Assembly (NCBI GenBank): GCA_903851455.1
Contig: CAINOM010000477.1
Span: 1 to 10,166, forward strand
DNA length: 10,166 nt
Source: an uncultured Bacteroidota bacterium
GTDB lineage: Bacteria > Bacteroidota > Bacteroidia > Chitinophagales > Chitinophagaceae
Direction of reading: 5' to 3'
Each line of letters opens with the position of its first letter. Within the stretch, counting starts at the first letter, position 1. Made by a program: the position numbers and the translations under genes. Below, piece by piece: positions 4,989-10,166 of the stretch. The notes below the pieces were generated by a model, which saw nothing but the letters and a program-made list of their open reading frames with translations, was not told the DNA's origin and made no database searches.

Positions 4989-5021
4989 GGGGTGATTATG
5001 GTAAATGATCTTTGGGAGATT

Positions 5022-5174
5022 TTATGCAAGATTGTTCTCAACTTCTGATGCGAGTGACTGAACTTTAGCAATTGCCTCATCGCGAGTAGTGCCATAGCAT
5101 AAGACACCGGGTATATCTACTACTTCGGCGATCCAACGCCCATCGTCTTCGGGTTCTGTCTCTACAGTCCACAT
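5022..5174 (-). CDS. Short HicB-like protein, apparently without HicA partner
   Basis: A 50-residue protein begins MWTVETEPEDDGRWIAEV and continues DIPGVLCYGTTRDEAIAKVQ. This is the HicB/DUF1902-type fold of small partial RNase-H-like antitoxins: beta strand, acidic turn DDGRW, beta strand, D-I/L-PG, then T-x-x-EA-x-x-K starting a helix. Relatives I know usually run about 70 residues or more, so it ends early, just after the helix (SEVENNLA). The start is firm: a strong Shine-Dalgarno AAAGGAGA lies about 10 nt upstream of the ATG, unlike most genes here. A hicA toxin gene would need about 180 nt, and neither the 57-nt gap to purH nor the 33-nt gap to namA can hold it. It is therefore an orphan and may regulate or simply persist. 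The assignment is from pattern recall, not a search. Confidence 0.8.
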   Translation of the reverse strand: MWTVETEPEDDGRWIAEVVDIPGVLCYGTTRDEAIAKVQSLASEVENNLA

Positions 5175-5231
5175 TGTTCTCTATCTCCTTTAATAAAAAT
5201 ACGACTTTGCTAGGTTAGCGTGAATTAAAGA

Positions 5232-6746
5232 TCAATGCTTAAAATGCCGCATACCGGTTATCACCATTGCCATGCCATTCTCCTTACAGAATTGAATGCT
5301 GTCATTATCGCGAACGGAGCCGCCGGGATGAATGACTGCTGTGATGCCGGCCTCGTGGGCCATGCGCACACAGTCGTCGAAGGGGAAGAAGGCATCAGAT
5401 GCCATTACTGCACCCTTGATGATGAAGCCGAATTGTTTGGTTTTATCTATTGCCTGGCGCAGGGCGTCTATGCGGCTGGTTTGTCCGCAGCCCTTGCCTA
5501 TGAGCTGTTTGTTTTTTACGATGGCGATCGCGTTAGACTTCAGATGCTTGCATACTATGTTGGCAAACAAAAGGTCTTCCTTCTCTGCATCACCGGCAGT
5601 GTGCGCACCTACGTCTTTCCATTCGGCAAAGTTCTGCGTGTCGGCGTCTTGTGCCAATACGCCGTTGAGGATTCGTTTGTACTCCTTCGAAGAGGAGAAT
5701 GGGCGTTTCTGCATGAGCAGGTTGCGGTTCTTCTTGCTCTTCAGCAAGGCAAGGGCATCTTCGTCGTAAGACGGTGCGATCAGTATCTCGAAGAATAGTT
5801 CGTTTATTTTTTGTGCCGCATCGATATCTATGGTTTGATTGGTGATGAGCACACCGCCAAATGCACTCTCGGGGTCGCCGGCAAGTGCCGCTTCCCACGC
5901 ATGTGTAAGGTTATCGCGCTCGGCAATGCCGCAAACGTTTGTGTGCTTAATGATGGCAAATGCAGGGTTTGAAAACTCAGCAATGATCTGGCAGGCGGCG
6001 TCTATGTCTACCAGGTTGTTGTATGACAGTTCCTTGCCATTCAGTTTCTCGAACAAGGCATCAAGATCGCCATAGAAAGAGGCTTTCTGGTGCGGGTTCT
6101 CGCCATAGCGCAGGCTGCGCTCATTGCCATAAGACAACTGGAAGTGACCAGTGCCTGATACCTTTGCAAAGTAATCGGCAATAGCTACATCATAATGGGC
6201 GCACTCTGCAAATGCCAGCGCAGCAAAATGCTTTCTGTTGTGCAGGGAGGTTTCACCATTGCCGCTTTCCAGCAGCTGCAGCAGCGCATCATATTGATCA
6301 CGGGATGCTACAATGCAGACATCATTAAAATTCTTTCCGGCCGCGCGTATCAGTGATACGCCGCCTATGTCTATTTTTTCTATTATCGTTTTTTCGTCGG
6401 CGGTTTGCTTTACAGTTTCTTCGAACGGATAGAGGTCAACGATAACAAGATCGAGCAAGGGGATCTCATATTCTTTTATGTGCTGCTGGTCGTCATTAAA
6501 ATCGCGGCGGGCCAGTATGCCGCCAAACACTTTGGGATGCAGTGTTTTTACACGGCCTCCAAGTATGGAAGGGTAACCGGTAACACTTTCTACGGAAGTG
6601 CAGGGAATGCCCAGCTGCTCAATGAACGATTGTGTGCCGCCGGTAGAGTATAATGCCACGCCGAGGCTATGGAGCTTGCGGACAACAGGTTCCAGGCCGT
6701 CTTTATAAAAAACGGAGATCAGCGCTGATTTAATGGTACGATTCAT
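5232..6746 (-). CDS. purH: Bifunctional AICAR transformylase / IMP cyclohydrolase
   Basis: PurH catalyses the last two steps of de novo purine synthesis in the cytosol: formylation of AICAR with 10-formyl-tetrahydrofolate, then ring closure to IMP. The 504-residue length is normal for the family. The N-terminal MGS-like cyclohydrolase domain (about 1-125) begins IKSALISVFYKDGLEP and has STGGT and GRVKTLHPKVFGGILARR. The transformylase domain shows LRYGENPHQKASFYG (about 212-226), SYNNLVDIDAA, and the catalytic Lys267-His268 in AIIKHTNVCG. FFPFDD and AVIHPGGSVRDND precede the C-terminal ITGMRHFKH. The start at 6744-6746 matches the family N-terminus. It is transcribed from its own promoter at 6791-6798 and is not clustered with other pur genes in this window. 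No clear terminator follows; an AT-rich 57-nt gap leads to the HicB-like gene, so read-through is possible. Confidence 0.97.
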   Translation of the reverse strand: MNRTIKSALISVFYKDGLEPVVRKLHSLGVALYSTGGTQSFIEQLGIPCTSVESVTGYPSILGGRVKTLHPKVFGGILARRDFNDDQQHIKEYEIPLLDLVIVDLYPFEETVKQTADEKTIIEKIDIGGVSLIRAAGKNFNDVCIVASRDQYDALLQLLESGNGETSLHNRKHFAALAFAECAHYDVAIADYFAKVSGTGHFQLSYGNERSLRYGENPHQKASFYGDLDALFEKLNGKELSYNNLVDIDAACQIIAEFSNPAFAIIKHTNVCGIAERDNLTHAWEAALAGDPESAFGGVLITNQTIDIDAAQKINELFFEILIAPSYDEDALALLKSKKNRNLLMQKRPFSSSKEYKRILNGVLAQDADTQNFAEWKDVGAHTAGDAEKEDLLFANIVCKHLKSNAIAIVKNKQLIGKGCGQTSRIDALRQAIDKTKQFGFIIKGAVMASDAFFPFDDCVRMAHEAGITAVIHPGGSVRDNDSIQFCKENGMAMVITGMRHFKH

Positions 6747-6790
6747 TTGAAATTCTTTTTTGAAGAAAGTGGAAAACGCAAAAATGTCCG

Positions 6791-6798
6791 CAAAGATA
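6791..6798 (-). promoter_or_regulatory. purH promoter, -7 box
   Basis: On the minus strand TATCTTTG is a perfect match to the Bacteroidota sigma-A -7 consensus TAnnTTTG. It would start transcription roughly 37-40 nt before the purH ATG. No exact TTG lies 17-23 nt upstream; a T-rich TTTTCC occupies that zone. The box lies just 32 nt past the stop of the 45-residue lipoprotein gene. Confidence 0.6.
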
Positions 6799-6829
6799 CG
6801 GAGCTAATAAAACATCGTGGAAAATTAGA

Positions 6830-6967
6830 TTACCACCACCTGTCGCCGGCATGATAAGCGCCGCGGCGGGGCACGCGCCTGTTGGTATGCGGGCGGTGTG
6901 ATATGCAGCTGCCCAGGTGGGCAAGAATGACCAGTATGGCGGCAACCTTAATAATTTTGTATTTCAT
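6830..6967 (-). CDS. Micro-lipoprotein A (45 residues), member of a tandem family
   Basis: The ATG at 6965-6967 begins MKYKIIKVAAILVILAHLGS, a short lipoprotein signal peptide. Cys21 follows in the lipobox LGSC, so the mature lipid-anchored peptide is only 25 residues. It has six Arg and three His but a single acidic residue, and ends GDRWW. It is not a recognised family. The evidence that it is real is its two downstream-oriented paralogues (7171-7302 and 7421-7549), which have the same length, the same Cys position and, for the nearer one, an almost identical start context (CCGATGAAATA). The 3' half is much richer in G/C than its siblings, and its tail is the most divergent. A 71-codon open frame in another phase overlaps it and is taken as its shadow. 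Function unknown. Confidence 0.72.
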   Translation of the reverse strand: MKYKIIKVAAILVILAHLGSCISHRPHTNRRVPRRGAYHAGDRWW

Positions 6968-7170
6968 CGGAAGTAATTTTTATTGCTGGCTGCCGGGAAG
7001 ATCGCTGTTGCTGATCTTACGGGTGATCTGCTGTAACGAAACAGCAGTGTTTTAAACCATTAATCGCTTAAAAGTAATAAAATCTTCTGTTTTATAAATA
7101 CAATTTTTCCTAACTAAAGGAATAGCCAATCACCCTGCACAAGGCAGGTAGAAAAGTACCAATACTGGAA
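6968..7170 (-). promoter_or_regulatory. Long leader region of micro-lipoprotein A with hairpins
   Basis: The 203 nt between the second and third lipoprotein genes hold no reading frame I can support. On the minus strand a weak promoter-like pair (TTG, then TACTTTTA about 24 nt later, near 7070-7105) would give a leader of about 100 nt. Inside it lie a perfect 7-bp hairpin (7028-7034 with 7041-7047, CTGCTGT/ACAGCAG) and, closer to the start codon, a bulged stem AGATC/GATCT with a GC-rich body (about 6999-7019). A small CCTGC/GCAGG stem at 7134-7148 lies just past the stop of the middle gene. A structured regulatory leader is possible but not shown. Confidence 0.3.
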
Positions 7171-7302
7171 CTAGTAATTCCGTTGCCGCGGTTGAGGACG
7201 TACTGTCTTTTGAGGCTCGGTTGCTTTTTTGTGTGTATGACAGCTTGCTACTGTAAACGCTACTGCTGCTACGAGGATCACCCTGAGTATATTATATTTC
7301 AT
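7171..7302 (-). CDS. Micro-lipoprotein B (43 residues), member of a tandem family
   Basis: The ATG at 7300-7302 begins MKYNILRVILVAAVAFTVAS, followed by Cys21 in the lipobox VASC. The mature part is 23 residues, starting CHTHKKATEP and continuing QKTVRPQPRQ. It is basic (three Lys, three Arg, two His, one Glu) with several Pro. It aligns well with the 42-residue neighbour: C-H-x-x-K-K, then P-Q-x-T-V, then R-P. Its start context CCGATGAAATA equals that of the 45-residue gene. Such a short lipid-anchored basic peptide should sit on the outer face of the inner membrane or in the outer membrane; the sorting is not predictable here. No function can be assigned. Confidence 0.78.
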   Translation of the reverse strand: MKYNILRVILVAAVAFTVASCHTHKKATEPQKTVRPQPRQRNY

Positions 7303-7318
7303 CGGTAGTGTAAAAATG

Positions 7319-7349
7319 TAAAGCTAAGATATTCATTTTACCAACGCAA
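7319..7349 (-). promoter_or_regulatory. Candidate promoter of micro-lipoprotein B
   Basis: On the minus strand TTG (7347-7349) is followed after 20 nt by TAGCTTTA (7319-7326), matching the Bacteroidota TTG-N17-23-TAnnTTTG pattern except for the last base. Transcription would start only about 10 nt before the ATG at 7302, which is short. If real, the middle gene has its own promoter and the three genes are not one simple operon. Confidence 0.35.
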
Positions 7350-7420
7350 TACTTTAAGACACAAAATAAAACATGCCCCCCTGGAACAGGAAGGTTGAAA
7401 AACAAAAAACTTACCATCGA

Positions 7421-7549
7421 CTAGTCGTTAATGTGCCTCGCGTGTGGGCGAAGAACAGTGTACTGGGGTTGTTTTTTGTTGGCATGGCAGCTGGCAATGC
7501 TGAAAGCTATAGCCAGAACTACTATTGACTTAAATATGTTACGCATCAT
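7421..7549 (-). CDS. Micro-lipoprotein C (42 residues), member of a tandem family
   Basis: The product begins MMRNIFKSIVVLAIAFSIAS with Cys21 in the lipobox IASC. The mature peptide is 22 residues: CHANKKQPQY, then TVLRPHARHIND. There are two adjacent ATGs (7547-7549 and 7544-7546); the first puts the Cys at exactly residue 21, as in both siblings. The tail is basic, with two Lys, two Arg and three His against one Asp. This is the first gene of the tandem set in the direction of transcription, 118 nt past the GT-C gene stop. The family does not match any I know; entericidin-like tandem small lipoproteins are similar in architecture only. Confidence 0.75.
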   Translation of the reverse strand: MMRNIFKSIVVLAIAFSIASCHANKKQPQYTVLRPHARHIND

Positions 7550-7599
7550 GGGGGATAAATTGTAAACTAAAGTTATTCAATGCCGCGACACAGAGTATA

Positions 7600-7618
7600 T
7601 TAATCGTTATATGATTAA
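7600..7618. repeat. 6-bp inverted repeat upstream of the micro-lipoprotein cluster
   Basis: TTAATC (7600-7605) and GATTAA (7613-7618) are perfect complements around a 7-nt spacer, 51-69 nt upstream of the first micro-lipoprotein start. It could be an operator or a weak AT-rich end signal for the GT-C gene, which otherwise has no visible terminator. The length is within reach of chance in this AT-rich stretch. Confidence 0.25.
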
Positions 7619-7667
7619 CCGAAGCTTAACGAAAATCAATCATTTATAAGATAAGCAATTGTAAATA

Positions 7668-9143
7668 TTAATTTACTCTGCAAACTGTAAAGCTGTATCC
7701 CTGTGGTGTATTGGTAAGGGGTATGCCCAGGAATTTCCTTTGCTCGGTAGTGCGCCAGTCGTAGATAATGGTGCATTTGCTTAGGAATTCGTTAGCAAAA
7801 GGAAGATATATCTGCTGGATAATCAACGTGTCATCTTTTTTGAAGTGGACGCCATCGAAAAACTTTACATCGCTGGCATCGTCGACCAGCGGCCAGAGGT
7901 TCACTGTGATGTAGACATTTTTACTGTTTTGAACCAGGCGATTGATGATGGGGCGGGCAGCAGCATAGTCCTTCTTATCTGTTTTATAATCGACAAAAAG
8001 GATGAACACCCGGAGAAATACAACTGTGCCGGCGACGTAAGTGAGTATGGATAAGGAGTAAACAGCAGTTTTCAGATAGCTCTTAGGCAACGAGATAATA
8101 TTGAGGAAGAGGTATACTGAGAGTGGCAGGATGAATTGCGTGGCGTTGTAAACAGTGGGCGATGCATAAAGAATGAAGCGCGCAATACCGTAGAGCACCA
8201 TGAGCTGGAGCGCGATGACCATGAGTACCCGCATGATCTTAGCATCTTTCAGCTTAACAAAAAGGGTTCTGAGATAAAAACCCGTGCATACCAGGAACAG
8301 GATCAAAAAGCCGAAGTTGAGCTGCGAGAACAGCCAGTAGTGTACAAAGAGTTTAGCGCTGCGGTCGCTACGGGTCATGGCTGATGACGCATGCAGGCGT
8401 ATAGTATCAACAGTGTCTGTAAAACCGTGCGGCGATGCGGATAGTATAGCGAAGAAAATAAGTGCGACGCCCCAGAAGCGGGCGGTGTTTATTAGTATCG
8501 TTATAAACAGATTGCGGGCATTAAGCAGCTCAAATACGAGAAAGAAAATGAAGCAGAAATAGAAGCAGATGATCTGCGTAGCAAACATGACCCCGAAGAT
8601 GACGCAGATAAGTAGGTTGTATAGAGCGGGGTGCAATTCATATCGCCGGTCGTAAAGAATGTAGATCATGAACACCAGCAGCACGGTAAGGTTCTCTGGC
8701 CGGCCCACCGTGGGTATGAGGTAGGTAGCCACATAAACAAGTGAGCACAGCACGAACACCTTCATAGAATTGCTCAGGCGCGCAGGCAGAACAGAAGCTA
8801 TGGCGCGGATATAAAGAAAAAGCCCTGCAATGCTGAACATGGAACAAATGAAAAAGATGGTTTTTATGCCGGGATTGATCTTGCCCAGGGTACCCAGCAA
8901 CATGGGGTAGAACGGAACGTAATAGTTGAATTTTATGGCATTGCTGACGTTGGTAGCCACGCCTACCACAGAGACATCGTAAAGGGGATTGACAAGCCCG
9001 AAACCCCGGGCGTACAAAAGGGCAGTGGGTATGAACACACGTGAATCTGTACCGGGCGTAGGGAAAATATTTAACCCATACAAAACCAGGATGACAGACA
9101 ACACAGCGGTTAAGGAATAAAACAAAACCTTAAATCTATTCAT
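7668..9143 (-). CDS. Polytopic membrane protein, GT-C glycosyltransferase-like
   Basis: The 491-residue protein has about ten or eleven hydrophobic segments, roughly at residues 5-27, 94-116, 126-144, 151-165, 172-204 (two), 213-236, 269-291, 303-327, 333-352 and 357-385. A soluble C-terminal part of about 105 residues follows. The layout fits lipid-linked-sugar glycosyltransferases of the GT-C/GT39/ArnT type. An acidic residue lies in the first external loop (TPGTDSRVF, Asp33), followed by LYARGFGLVNPLYD and YYVPFYPMLLG, and later GRPENL (147-152). In that fold the loop-1 Asp is catalytic, and the enzymes transfer sugars from polyprenyl carriers on the outer face of the inner membrane. Donor and acceptor are unknown. 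The start follows the RemB-like gene by 39 nt, so the two are probably co-transcribed. Confidence 0.72.
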   Translation of the reverse strand: MNRFKVLFYSLTAVLSVILVLYGLNIFPTPGTDSRVFIPTALLYARGFGLVNPLYDVSVVGVATNVSNAIKFNYYVPFYPMLLGTLGKINPGIKTIFFICSMFSIAGLFLYIRAIASVLPARLSNSMKVFVLCSLVYVATYLIPTVGRPENLTVLLVFMIYILYDRRYELHPALYNLLICVIFGVMFATQIICFYFCFIFFLVFELLNARNLFITILINTARFWGVALIFFAILSASPHGFTDTVDTIRLHASSAMTRSDRSAKLFVHYWLFSQLNFGFLILFLVCTGFYLRTLFVKLKDAKIMRVLMVIALQLMVLYGIARFILYASPTVYNATQFILPLSVYLFLNIISLPKSYLKTAVYSLSILTYVAGTVVFLRVFILFVDYKTDKKDYAAARPIINRLVQNSKNVYITVNLWPLVDDASDVKFFDGVHFKKDDTLIIQQIYLPFANEFLSKCTIIYDWRTTEQRKFLGIPLTNTPQGYSFTVCRVN

Positions 9144-9182
9144 ACTTTTTTCCTTAATAGTGCCGCGAAGATATTCCTTTGT

Positions 9183-10166
9183 TTAAAACAGATCATAATC
9201 GCGACGGGAAGCATTGAGCCTTAACCCAATATAGAAGTAATTTGTAGTGAGTGGGCCGTAAACAGGGCCGGTAGTAGAATAATCGTTGCGGTAAATGCCG
9301 GCATTATTCGCATACTTCCGGTAAGTATCACCAAGATCGATAAAGAGATTCCTGCGGAGCTGGTAGGAGATATTGATGTTGATCATTTCGCAATGGCTCT
9401 CGGGACCATGGATCATTTTCACACCATACTGATCAGGTGCGGTAACGTAGGGGTTGAATATGTTGTTGCCATAGTTTACGCCGCCGGTGTCGATACCCTG
9501 TATGTAGTAAGTTCCCTTGAGTGTGAGATAAAGGTTTTGAACCGGCTGGTAGCGTGCAACGCCGACAACACGAATGAAGCCTGAACCAAGCGGATCGGCA
9601 AGCGGCTGGTTGTAGTTGGTGTAATTGGCAAGGGTATCTTTCGCAGAATAAGTATAGGGGCGCACAGCATCTATCTCGCCCTGCAGGTCAAAGTTTTTCA
9701 ATGTAAATGCGTCGAAGTATTTGCCGCCGGCCTGTATACCCCATTTGTTGCCGTACCAGCCATTGCTGCTGAAGAGTTCTTTAGCCCTGAACTCATTGAA
9801 CATCAGCTGGCCATAAAACTGCAGGTGCTTTGCCACAATTGCCTTCGCGCTCATACCCAATATCGATTTATCTCCTTCTCCGTTGAACCTGTTTACTGCA
9901 GTAGAGAAAATGATGGGGTTGAGGTAGGACAGCTCGTATGAATTGGGACGATCGAACACTTCAGCTTCGAAGAAGCCGAGGTTGAGCCATTTAAAGGTAT
10001 TCCAGGTGAGGTAGTGGATGGTGGAATACTTGTGTGCCACGAGTCCATCGCCCAGGTTCTTATCATATTGCGGGGTCAGCTCCAGGTAGAGGCATTCGTA
10101 ATTGATATGCCAGATGCGGGTCTGCAACTGCAGGAAAGGCATGTTGGACGAATTGTCTGTAAGGAA
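9183..10166 (-). CDS. Outer-membrane beta-barrel protein, RemB/Wzi-like (5' end outside window)
   Basis: The frame is open to the window edge, so at least 327 C-terminal residues are visible and the start is missing; an internal Met at 10140-10142 is not the start. The sequence alternates hydrophobic and polar residues in amphipathic strands and ends LNASRRDYDLF with a terminal Phe, as outer-membrane barrels do. Blocks such as NSYELSYLNPIIFSTAVNRF, NKWGIQAGGKYFDAF and EIDAVRPYTYS recall the Bacteroidota RemB/Wzi-like proteins associated with surface polysaccharide or gliding-motility adhesins. The name rests on memory of these motifs and not on a search. The nearby GT-C gene fits a role in surface glycan handling. 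No terminator separates the two. Confidence 0.65.
   Translation of the reverse strand, partial: FLTDNSSNMPFLQLQTRIWHINYECLYLELTPQYDKNLGDGLVAHKYSTIHYLTWNTFKWLNLGFFEAEVFDRPNSYELSYLNPIIFSTAVNRFNGEGDKSILGMSAKAIVAKHLQFYGQLMFNEFRAKELFSSNGWYGNKWGIQAGGKYFDAFTLKNFDLQGEIDAVRPYTYSAKDTLANYTNYNQPLADPLGSGFIRVVGVARYQPVQNLYLTLKGTYYIQGIDTGGVNYGNNIFNPYVTAPDQYGVKMIHGPESHCEMININISYQLRRNLFIDLGDTYRKYANNAGIYRNDYSTTGPVYGPLTTNYFYIGLRLNASRRDYDLF

Follow-up and report, generated by a model that had tools for sequence, protein, structure and literature searches.

Tiny lipoproteins with a short mature part are known from the entericidins, which in Escherichia coli are encoded in tandem by ecnA and ecnB. Another short lipid-anchored peptide, Braun's lipoprotein Lpp, is a 58-residue helix that is covalently joined by its terminal Lys and whose C-terminal end is the working part. 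An annotated member of the entericidin family outside E. coli, Atu8019 of Agrobacterium, is described in PMC7296081 as a 53-aa lipoprotein with a 32-aa mature part that is found in outer membrane vesicles (OMVs), is surface-exposed and is reported to aid docking, its overproduction being described there as proceeding without lysis. Keyword searches of one open library returned no paper that combined the terms for small lipoproteins with Bacteroidetes, Bacteroidota or Chitinophagaceae.

The window analysed here, a stretch of 10,166 nucleotides from an uncultured member of the Chitinophagaceae, is one entire contig of an assembly (genome G000) that comprises 760 contigs and is 70% complete. In the interval 6747-7667, flanked by purH and by an ORF for a membrane-protein-like product of 491 aa without a Pfam match, both on the minus strand, the initial annotation had reported three minus-strand ORFs of 42, 43 and 45 aa with a Cys at residue 21, and their coordinates, strands and lengths all proved exact (Table 1). 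In all three a basic N-region is followed by a hydrophobic stretch and by a lipobox whose Cys is residue 21, as identified with a rule-based scan of our own (an ATG start, 30-75 aa, K/R in the N-region, a hydrophobic stretch and a Cys in a lipobox at residue 14-28), and under this fixed rule the interval contains LP1, LP2, LP3 and no others. Shuffling did not reproduce such a cluster: among 2000 first-order Markov shuffles of the interval 1992 gave none, 8 gave one and 0 gave two or more. The mature parts are short and basic, as had been claimed, with 22, 23 and 25 residues and net charges (K+R-D-E) of +3, +5 and +5; the elements CHxxKK, PQxTV and RP are common to LP1 and LP2, and the start context CCGATGAAATA to LP2 and LP3, just as described. 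Throughout the alignments A1 (19 LP3 sequences), A2 (11 LP1/LP2 sequences) and A4 (17 members) the lipobox Cys is invariant.

Table 1. Coordinates of genes and predicted elements in and around the lipoprotein interval of the window
Feature	Position	Strand	Description
purH	5232..6746	-	neighbour downstream of LP3; served as synteny marker
LP3	6830..6967	-	45-aa predicted lipoprotein, mature CISHRPHTNRRVPRRGAYHAGDRWW, family 2, nearly genus-wide
Inverted repeat	7028..7047		arms of 7 bp, loop of 6 bases; lies in the leader predicted for LP3 in the window genome
Predicted LP3 -7 element	7069..7076	-	TACTTTTA; implies a leader of ~96 nt
LP2	7171..7302	-	43-aa predicted lipoprotein of family 1, paralogous to LP1 and in tandem with it, mature CHTHKKATEPQKTVRPQPRQRNY
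Predicted LP2 -7 region	7319..7331	-	orthologous site TATCTTAG, one base off, overlaps the shifted match TAGCTTTA
Terminator-like hairpin	7376..7394	-	between LP1 and LP2
LP1	7421..7549	-	42-aa predicted lipoprotein, mature CHANKKQPQYTVLRPHARHIND, family 1
Predicted LP1 -7 element	7568..7575	-	TAACTTTA; same site in 4 aligned LP1 upstreams
Membrane-protein-like ORF	7668..9143	-	491 aa

The three genes had been taken for a single duplicated family, a claim that holds for LP1 and LP2 and finds no support for LP3. Used as a query in its own genome, LP2 finds LP1 (E 4.6e-6, residues 2-40) and not LP3, which makes LP1 and LP2 tandem paralogues. When the mature parts of LP3 and LP1/LP2 were aligned, the score of 10.57 was reached by 6 of 60 permuted-column controls, so that no significant kinship of the mature parts is seen and a single family of all three is not supported; an hhalign comparison of the two profiles, signal peptides included, gave 96.9%. 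On present evidence we treat LP1/LP2 (family 1) and LP3 (family 2) as two families that have in common a lipoprotein signal and a neighbourhood, and the comparison leaves room for a distant common origin.

Selection on the encoded proteins was assessed by pairwise Nei-Gojobori counts, and dN/dS between copies, which the initial annotation had proposed as a check, is low, indicating purifying selection at the protein level. In the nine listed pairs of LP1, LP2 or LP3 genes without saturation the ratio ranges from 0.03 to 0.15, among them 0.04 (G000/G015) and 0.07 (G000/G001) for LP2, 0.09 (G000/G015) for LP1, and 0.13 (G000/G015) and 0.03 (G004/G020) for LP3. Codon differences fall mostly at third positions, the LP2 genes of G000 and G015 differing 4, 2 and 21 times at codon positions 1, 2 and 3. 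Pooled over close sets, from which the extra LP2 copy of G001 was left out, dN/dS is 0.154 for LP3 (28 pairs) and 0.207 for LP2 (15 pairs); for LP1, saturation of synonymous sites leaves the ratio undefined in the pool and in two of the three pairs listed.

The C-terminal 11 residues of LP2, TVRPQPRQRNY, do not differ among six copies that come from five genomes (a count without G012), although synonymous sites are close to saturated. Over these 11 codons pS is 0.665 and pN 0.008, a value above zero despite identical residues because mutation paths are averaged; the LP2 linker, which varies in length, has a pS of 0.868 and a pN of 0.375, and the LP1 tail a pS of 0.796 and a pN of 0.047 (4 copies). 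The tails of the two tandem LP2 copies of G001 differ at 9 of 33 nucleotides and at 0 of 11 residues. As the synonymous sites have changed and the residues have stayed fixed, the LP2 tail is held at the protein level and not by a constraint on DNA or RNA. Changed tails occur in G012 (VLRPKPRERNY) and G033 (VLRPHARSVRS), and C21, K25, K26, R35, P36, R39 and N42 are invariant in 11/11 LP1/LP2 sequences. LP3 has a terminal W in 19/19 sequences of alignment A1, with S20, C21 and T28 invariant, and its tail is across the genus no better conserved than the signal (pN/pS 0.565 for the last 11 codons and 0.428 for the signal, with pS close to saturation); among the 8 closest sequences it is better conserved by a small margin (0.263 against 0.333). 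Judged from sequence comparison, selection on the protein, a division into two families and the fixity of the LP1/LP2 tails are established, and LP1, LP2 and LP3 are real genes of two overlooked families of tiny predicted lipoproteins. The prediction of lipoprotein genes has thereby stood up in its main parts, with start, frame and Cys conserved in relatives, purifying selection, and the tandem duplication of LP1 and LP2.

The two families differ in their spread. Among the 35 genomes of the genus in the search set, LP3 was found in 33, the match covering the whole profile or lacking no more than its first 2-4 positions (weakest E 6.7e-8); the 19 sequences from which the profile was built match by construction. 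No match was obtained in G014 and G025, which are 65% and 57% complete. purH was matched in 34 genus genomes and its locus was readable in 30, in 19 of which LP3 lies less than 500 bp upstream of purH with a gap of 74-280 nt. Diverged forms are located ~140 bp (G023) and ~560 bp (G003) upstream of purH, and in G010 LP3 lies 1.7 kb upstream, past another ORF. In 11 genomes LP3 and purH are on different contigs or separated by at least 19 kb, both among the 30 readable loci (G007, G017, G021, G034, G006, G009 and G002) and outside them (G013, G008, G018 and G029), and for this reason we rejected LP3 as a leader peptide of purH or of purine synthesis. Family 1 gave near-full-profile matches in 7/35 genus genomes (G000, G001, G004, G012, G015, G020 and G033), with one to three copies per carrier, located upstream of LP3 in the interval; an additional partial match elsewhere in G033 was read as a similar lipoprotein, and the remaining matches (E up to 0.001) stop at position 29 or earlier and reflect the signal. 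In a purH tree the seven carriers group with G005 and G011, for which the profile search gave no family 1 match; local support is 0.921 for the group of nine genomes and weak inside it (0.304, 0.126).

Beyond the genus, at most 18 candidates per genome were scored family-wide and at most 24 order-wide, so that the counts are lower bounds, and many matches cover the signal only. Family-wide (394 genomes), whole-profile LP3 matches with E up to 7e-8 occur in at least 8 genomes from a single other genus (g122), one of these eight (G392) carrying an in-frame stop; a ninth g122 match (G332) was found at E 3.6e-6 and one in a third genus (G119) at 1.8e-5. Six of the seven g122 proteins that were read extend five residues beyond the conserved W and one ends at it, hence a free C-terminal W is not universal in the LP3 family. 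Order-wide (298 genomes), there was no whole-profile LP3 match besides the window's own among the best 24 candidates per genome, and a few partial matches had E values of 2e-5 to 1e-4. Searches with LP3 found nothing in viral contigs (alignment A3) or in plasmids, and a phage or plasmid origin was rejected for LP3, the only query used.

Other small lipoproteins and ORFs were seen along the way. The same genome encodes on contig C584 (L127, 1959-2120, minus strand) a predicted lipoprotein of 53 aa, MKYKILRL...SSCFKERWTRYGNRKTYYVHRKHYNWHHRHRHSDW, that is rich in His, Arg and Tyr and ends in W, with look-alikes in G002, G024, G027, G028 and G012, and on contig C237 (L128, 1601-1753) one of 50 aa whose His/Asp/Glu-rich tail could bind metal. 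Another basic type, ending in GGYW, occurs in G012, G007 and G016 (L195 3500-3685, L136 335-535 and L166 1486-1686), and several of the tiny basic lipoproteins seen have an aromatic last residue. A census of small lipoproteins in G012 found 1 with a first filter (400 kb) and 8, some doubtful, with a second (1.2 Mb; null mean 0.65, maximum 3 in 20 replicates), whose lipobox was looser and coding mask stricter and which misses the one from the first filter. Elsewhere in the window, on the minus strand, a 50-aa ORF (5022-5174) has sub-threshold similarity to DUF1902, UPF0150-like and HicB-like proteins, and a 431-aa protein (138-1433) shows a weak Ig-like match besides a type IX secretion C-terminal sorting domain.

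Promoter-like elements were sought with the pattern TANNTTTR within 130 nt upstream of each copy, the Bacteroidetes -7 consensus being given in PMC6847099 as TAHHTTTG with a spacing to the start site of 4-5 nt. A -7-like element was found before 30 of the 31 copies, where 9.3 were expected (LP3 19/20, LP2 7/7 and LP1 4/4; expected 5.8, 2.1 and 1.4). Its position is -26 (three copies) or -29 for LP1 and -23 to -28 for LP2, the shifted LP2 match of the window containing a disfavoured G; by eye, nearly all elements end in A where the consensus has G. For LP3 the element is found 96-123 nt upstream in the window and four close relatives and at -13 to -15 before the ATG in 10 of the 20 genomes of the genus, G026, G028 and G019 among them, which together with the published spacing predicts nearly leaderless mRNAs. 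For Flavobacterium johnsoniae the same source gives a leader of more than 10 nt for 87% of predicted transcripts and describes A at -3 and -6 as favourable; this A is present at -3 in 1/31 and at -6 in 5/31 of our copies, which, like the terminal A of the elements and the G in the window's LP2 match, speaks against the promoter assignment. Terminator-like sites number 10 against 3.4 expected in 5500-9000 on both strands, and LP1, LP2 and LP3 are probably transcribed separately.

As had been anticipated, LP1-LP3 are absent from the family libraries searched: there was no match in Pfam or PADLOC, none above cut-off in NCBIfam and a best E of only 0.038 in PHROGs, and the matches of A1, A2 and A4 members all stayed below threshold. 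The initial annotation had seen no kinship with entericidins, and no entericidin model matched above threshold; none was among the Pfam matches of A4 or A2, and in NCBIfam entericidin B matched 1 of 19 LP3 sequences (E 0.012) and entericidin A 2 of 11 LP1/LP2 sequences (best E 0.021), all below threshold. A known RNA or type I toxin-antitoxin system was rejected in view of the PADLOC result and of no Rfam match in 5000-9200, and a RiPP precursor because NF050125 reaches only E 0.078 for LP2 (residues 5-33) and at best E 0.02, in 2/11 members. Among solved structures the best E was 0.63 (A4) and 0.053 (A2), over the N-terminal part. The protein database yielded one LP3 relative by single sequence and 19 by profile, of which three are named (hypothetical protein twice, LptE/RlpB once), and no relative of LP2 by single-sequence search; relatives thus appear scattered in the databases with no family model found. 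An AGRYW pattern gave 30 matches against 1 for a reversed-pattern control, 12 of them LP3; of the 18 others 14 were read and 4 end in TGG, hence have no stop. Those read are open frames of 8-66 aa, by eye no lipoproteins, and AGRYW as a tail of other proteins was rejected.

We propose, with a probability of about 0.45, that the LPs are lipid-anchored peptide ligands whose fixed C-terminal tail docks on a specific envelope partner. Cleavage by signal peptidase II ahead of Cys21 and lipidation of this Cys would yield a basic peptide of 22-25 residues that is lipid-anchored, probably to the outer membrane. The variable linker after the Cys would hold out the tail, i.e. the LP2 sequence given above, VLRPHARHIND in LP1 and ...TxRR.P.H..Y..AGRYW or a DRWW form in LP3, which would dock on one specific partner, either a protein or an anionic polymer (peptidoglycan, LPS). 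LP1 and LP2 stem from a tandem duplication and now carry two versions of the tail, so they may bind two partners, or one in two ways. A mature part of this length is in our judgement unlikely to form a domain, and a free linker with a fixed tail has the look to be expected of a tethered peptide ligand. Counting against the proposal are the LP3 tail, which across the genus is no better conserved than the signal, the extension of most g122 proteins read beyond the W, the altered tails of G012 and G033 and the scarcity of the favourable A at -3. Rather doubtful is the wider idea that both families, unrelated to each other, are short linear motifs on a lipid anchor that dispense with a folded domain altogether, lipid and length-variable linker merely presenting a fixed C-terminal ligand, in LP2 of 11 residues, to an envelope receptor dedicated to it, as a ready-made tether or sensor missed by gene finders across the genus and beyond.

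Several other explanations have to be weighed against docking of a fixed tail, among them surface charge and lysis or toxin-like activity, which the initial annotation had named as possible roles beside membrane stress. The peptides could be a cationic filler of the envelope that acts by charge on LPS or lipid phosphates, or loosely holds peptidoglycan, with no specific partner; all 19 LP3 and 11 LP1/LP2 alignment members are basic (net +3 to +7) and His and Arg are frequent in both families. Charge alone would, however, tolerate an exchange of R for K and give no reason for Q and N to be preserved, whereas in the six exact copies of the LP2 tail, with synonymous sites near saturation, R is never swapped for K and Q and N are kept. 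For LP3, with its more variable tail, the argument does not apply. We consider the filler unlikely. Less likely again is an outward-facing surface lipopeptide that helps OMVs or cells to dock, for which Atu8019, as described in PMC7296081, offers a parallel in its small size, presence in OMVs and aid to docking. The export signal of Bacteroidota surface lipoproteins, described in PMC5080379 as acidic and placed after the Cys (K-(D/E)2 and variants), is missing when looked for as two acidic residues at +2..+7 (0/19 LP3, 0/11 LP1/LP2), a test that says little here, as among 34 large predicted lipoproteins sampled in G012 only 2 carry the signal; entericidin models, to which Atu8019 is assigned, also stay below threshold.

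We regard as improbable a lytic or toxin-like lipopeptide (an entericidin, a lysis protein or a type I toxin): size, lipobox and tandem order do resemble ecnA-ecnB, the sub-threshold entericidin matches point the same way, and LP1 has a PHROGs match to a lysis family (Rz-like spanin; E 0.084, residues 1-31), but the Pfam, PADLOC and Rfam searches were negative and LP3 is both kept nearly throughout the genus and not found in viral contigs or plasmids. Very improbable, finally, is that the ORFs are not genes or that the peptides matter only as regulatory leaders of purH, as the frequent position of LP3 shortly upstream of purH, also in G023, might suggest; this is opposed by dN/dS and the codon-position pattern, by the 11 genomes in which LP3 is away from purH and the variable gap of 74-280 nt in the 19 with LP3 close to it, and by the -7-like elements that LP1 and LP2 have of their own.

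If the tail is a ligand, a lipopeptide of 22 residues would be a minimal and easily synthesised probe for a Bacteroidota envelope receptor. More generally, conserved lipoproteins of 40-45 residues can escape family libraries and nearly escape protein databases, and short alignments in combination with codon statistics can recover them.

Compared with the described systems, the LPs resemble Atu8019 in being small lipoproteins with a short mature part, but stay below the models of the entericidin family to which that protein is annotated. The PG1828 family (NF050142), also small Bacteroidota lipoproteins, is the commonest sub-threshold match of LP1/LP2 (5/11, best E 0.0063), with 15.9 bits for LP2 and 17.2 for LP1 against a curated cut-off of 50 and no match for LP3, and the match spans the signal and a few residues past the Cys (LP2 5-29, model 4-27 of 59). 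EcnA and EcnB are likewise tiny lipoproteins with a short mature part and tandem genes, from which the LPs differ in their basic Arg/Pro or Tyr/Trp tails, in phylum and in the level of the matches. Unlike Lpp, with its 58-residue helix and terminal Lys, the LPs have mature parts of 22-25 residues and no terminal Lys; what they may have in common with it is the design of a short lipid-anchored peptide with a working C-terminal end.
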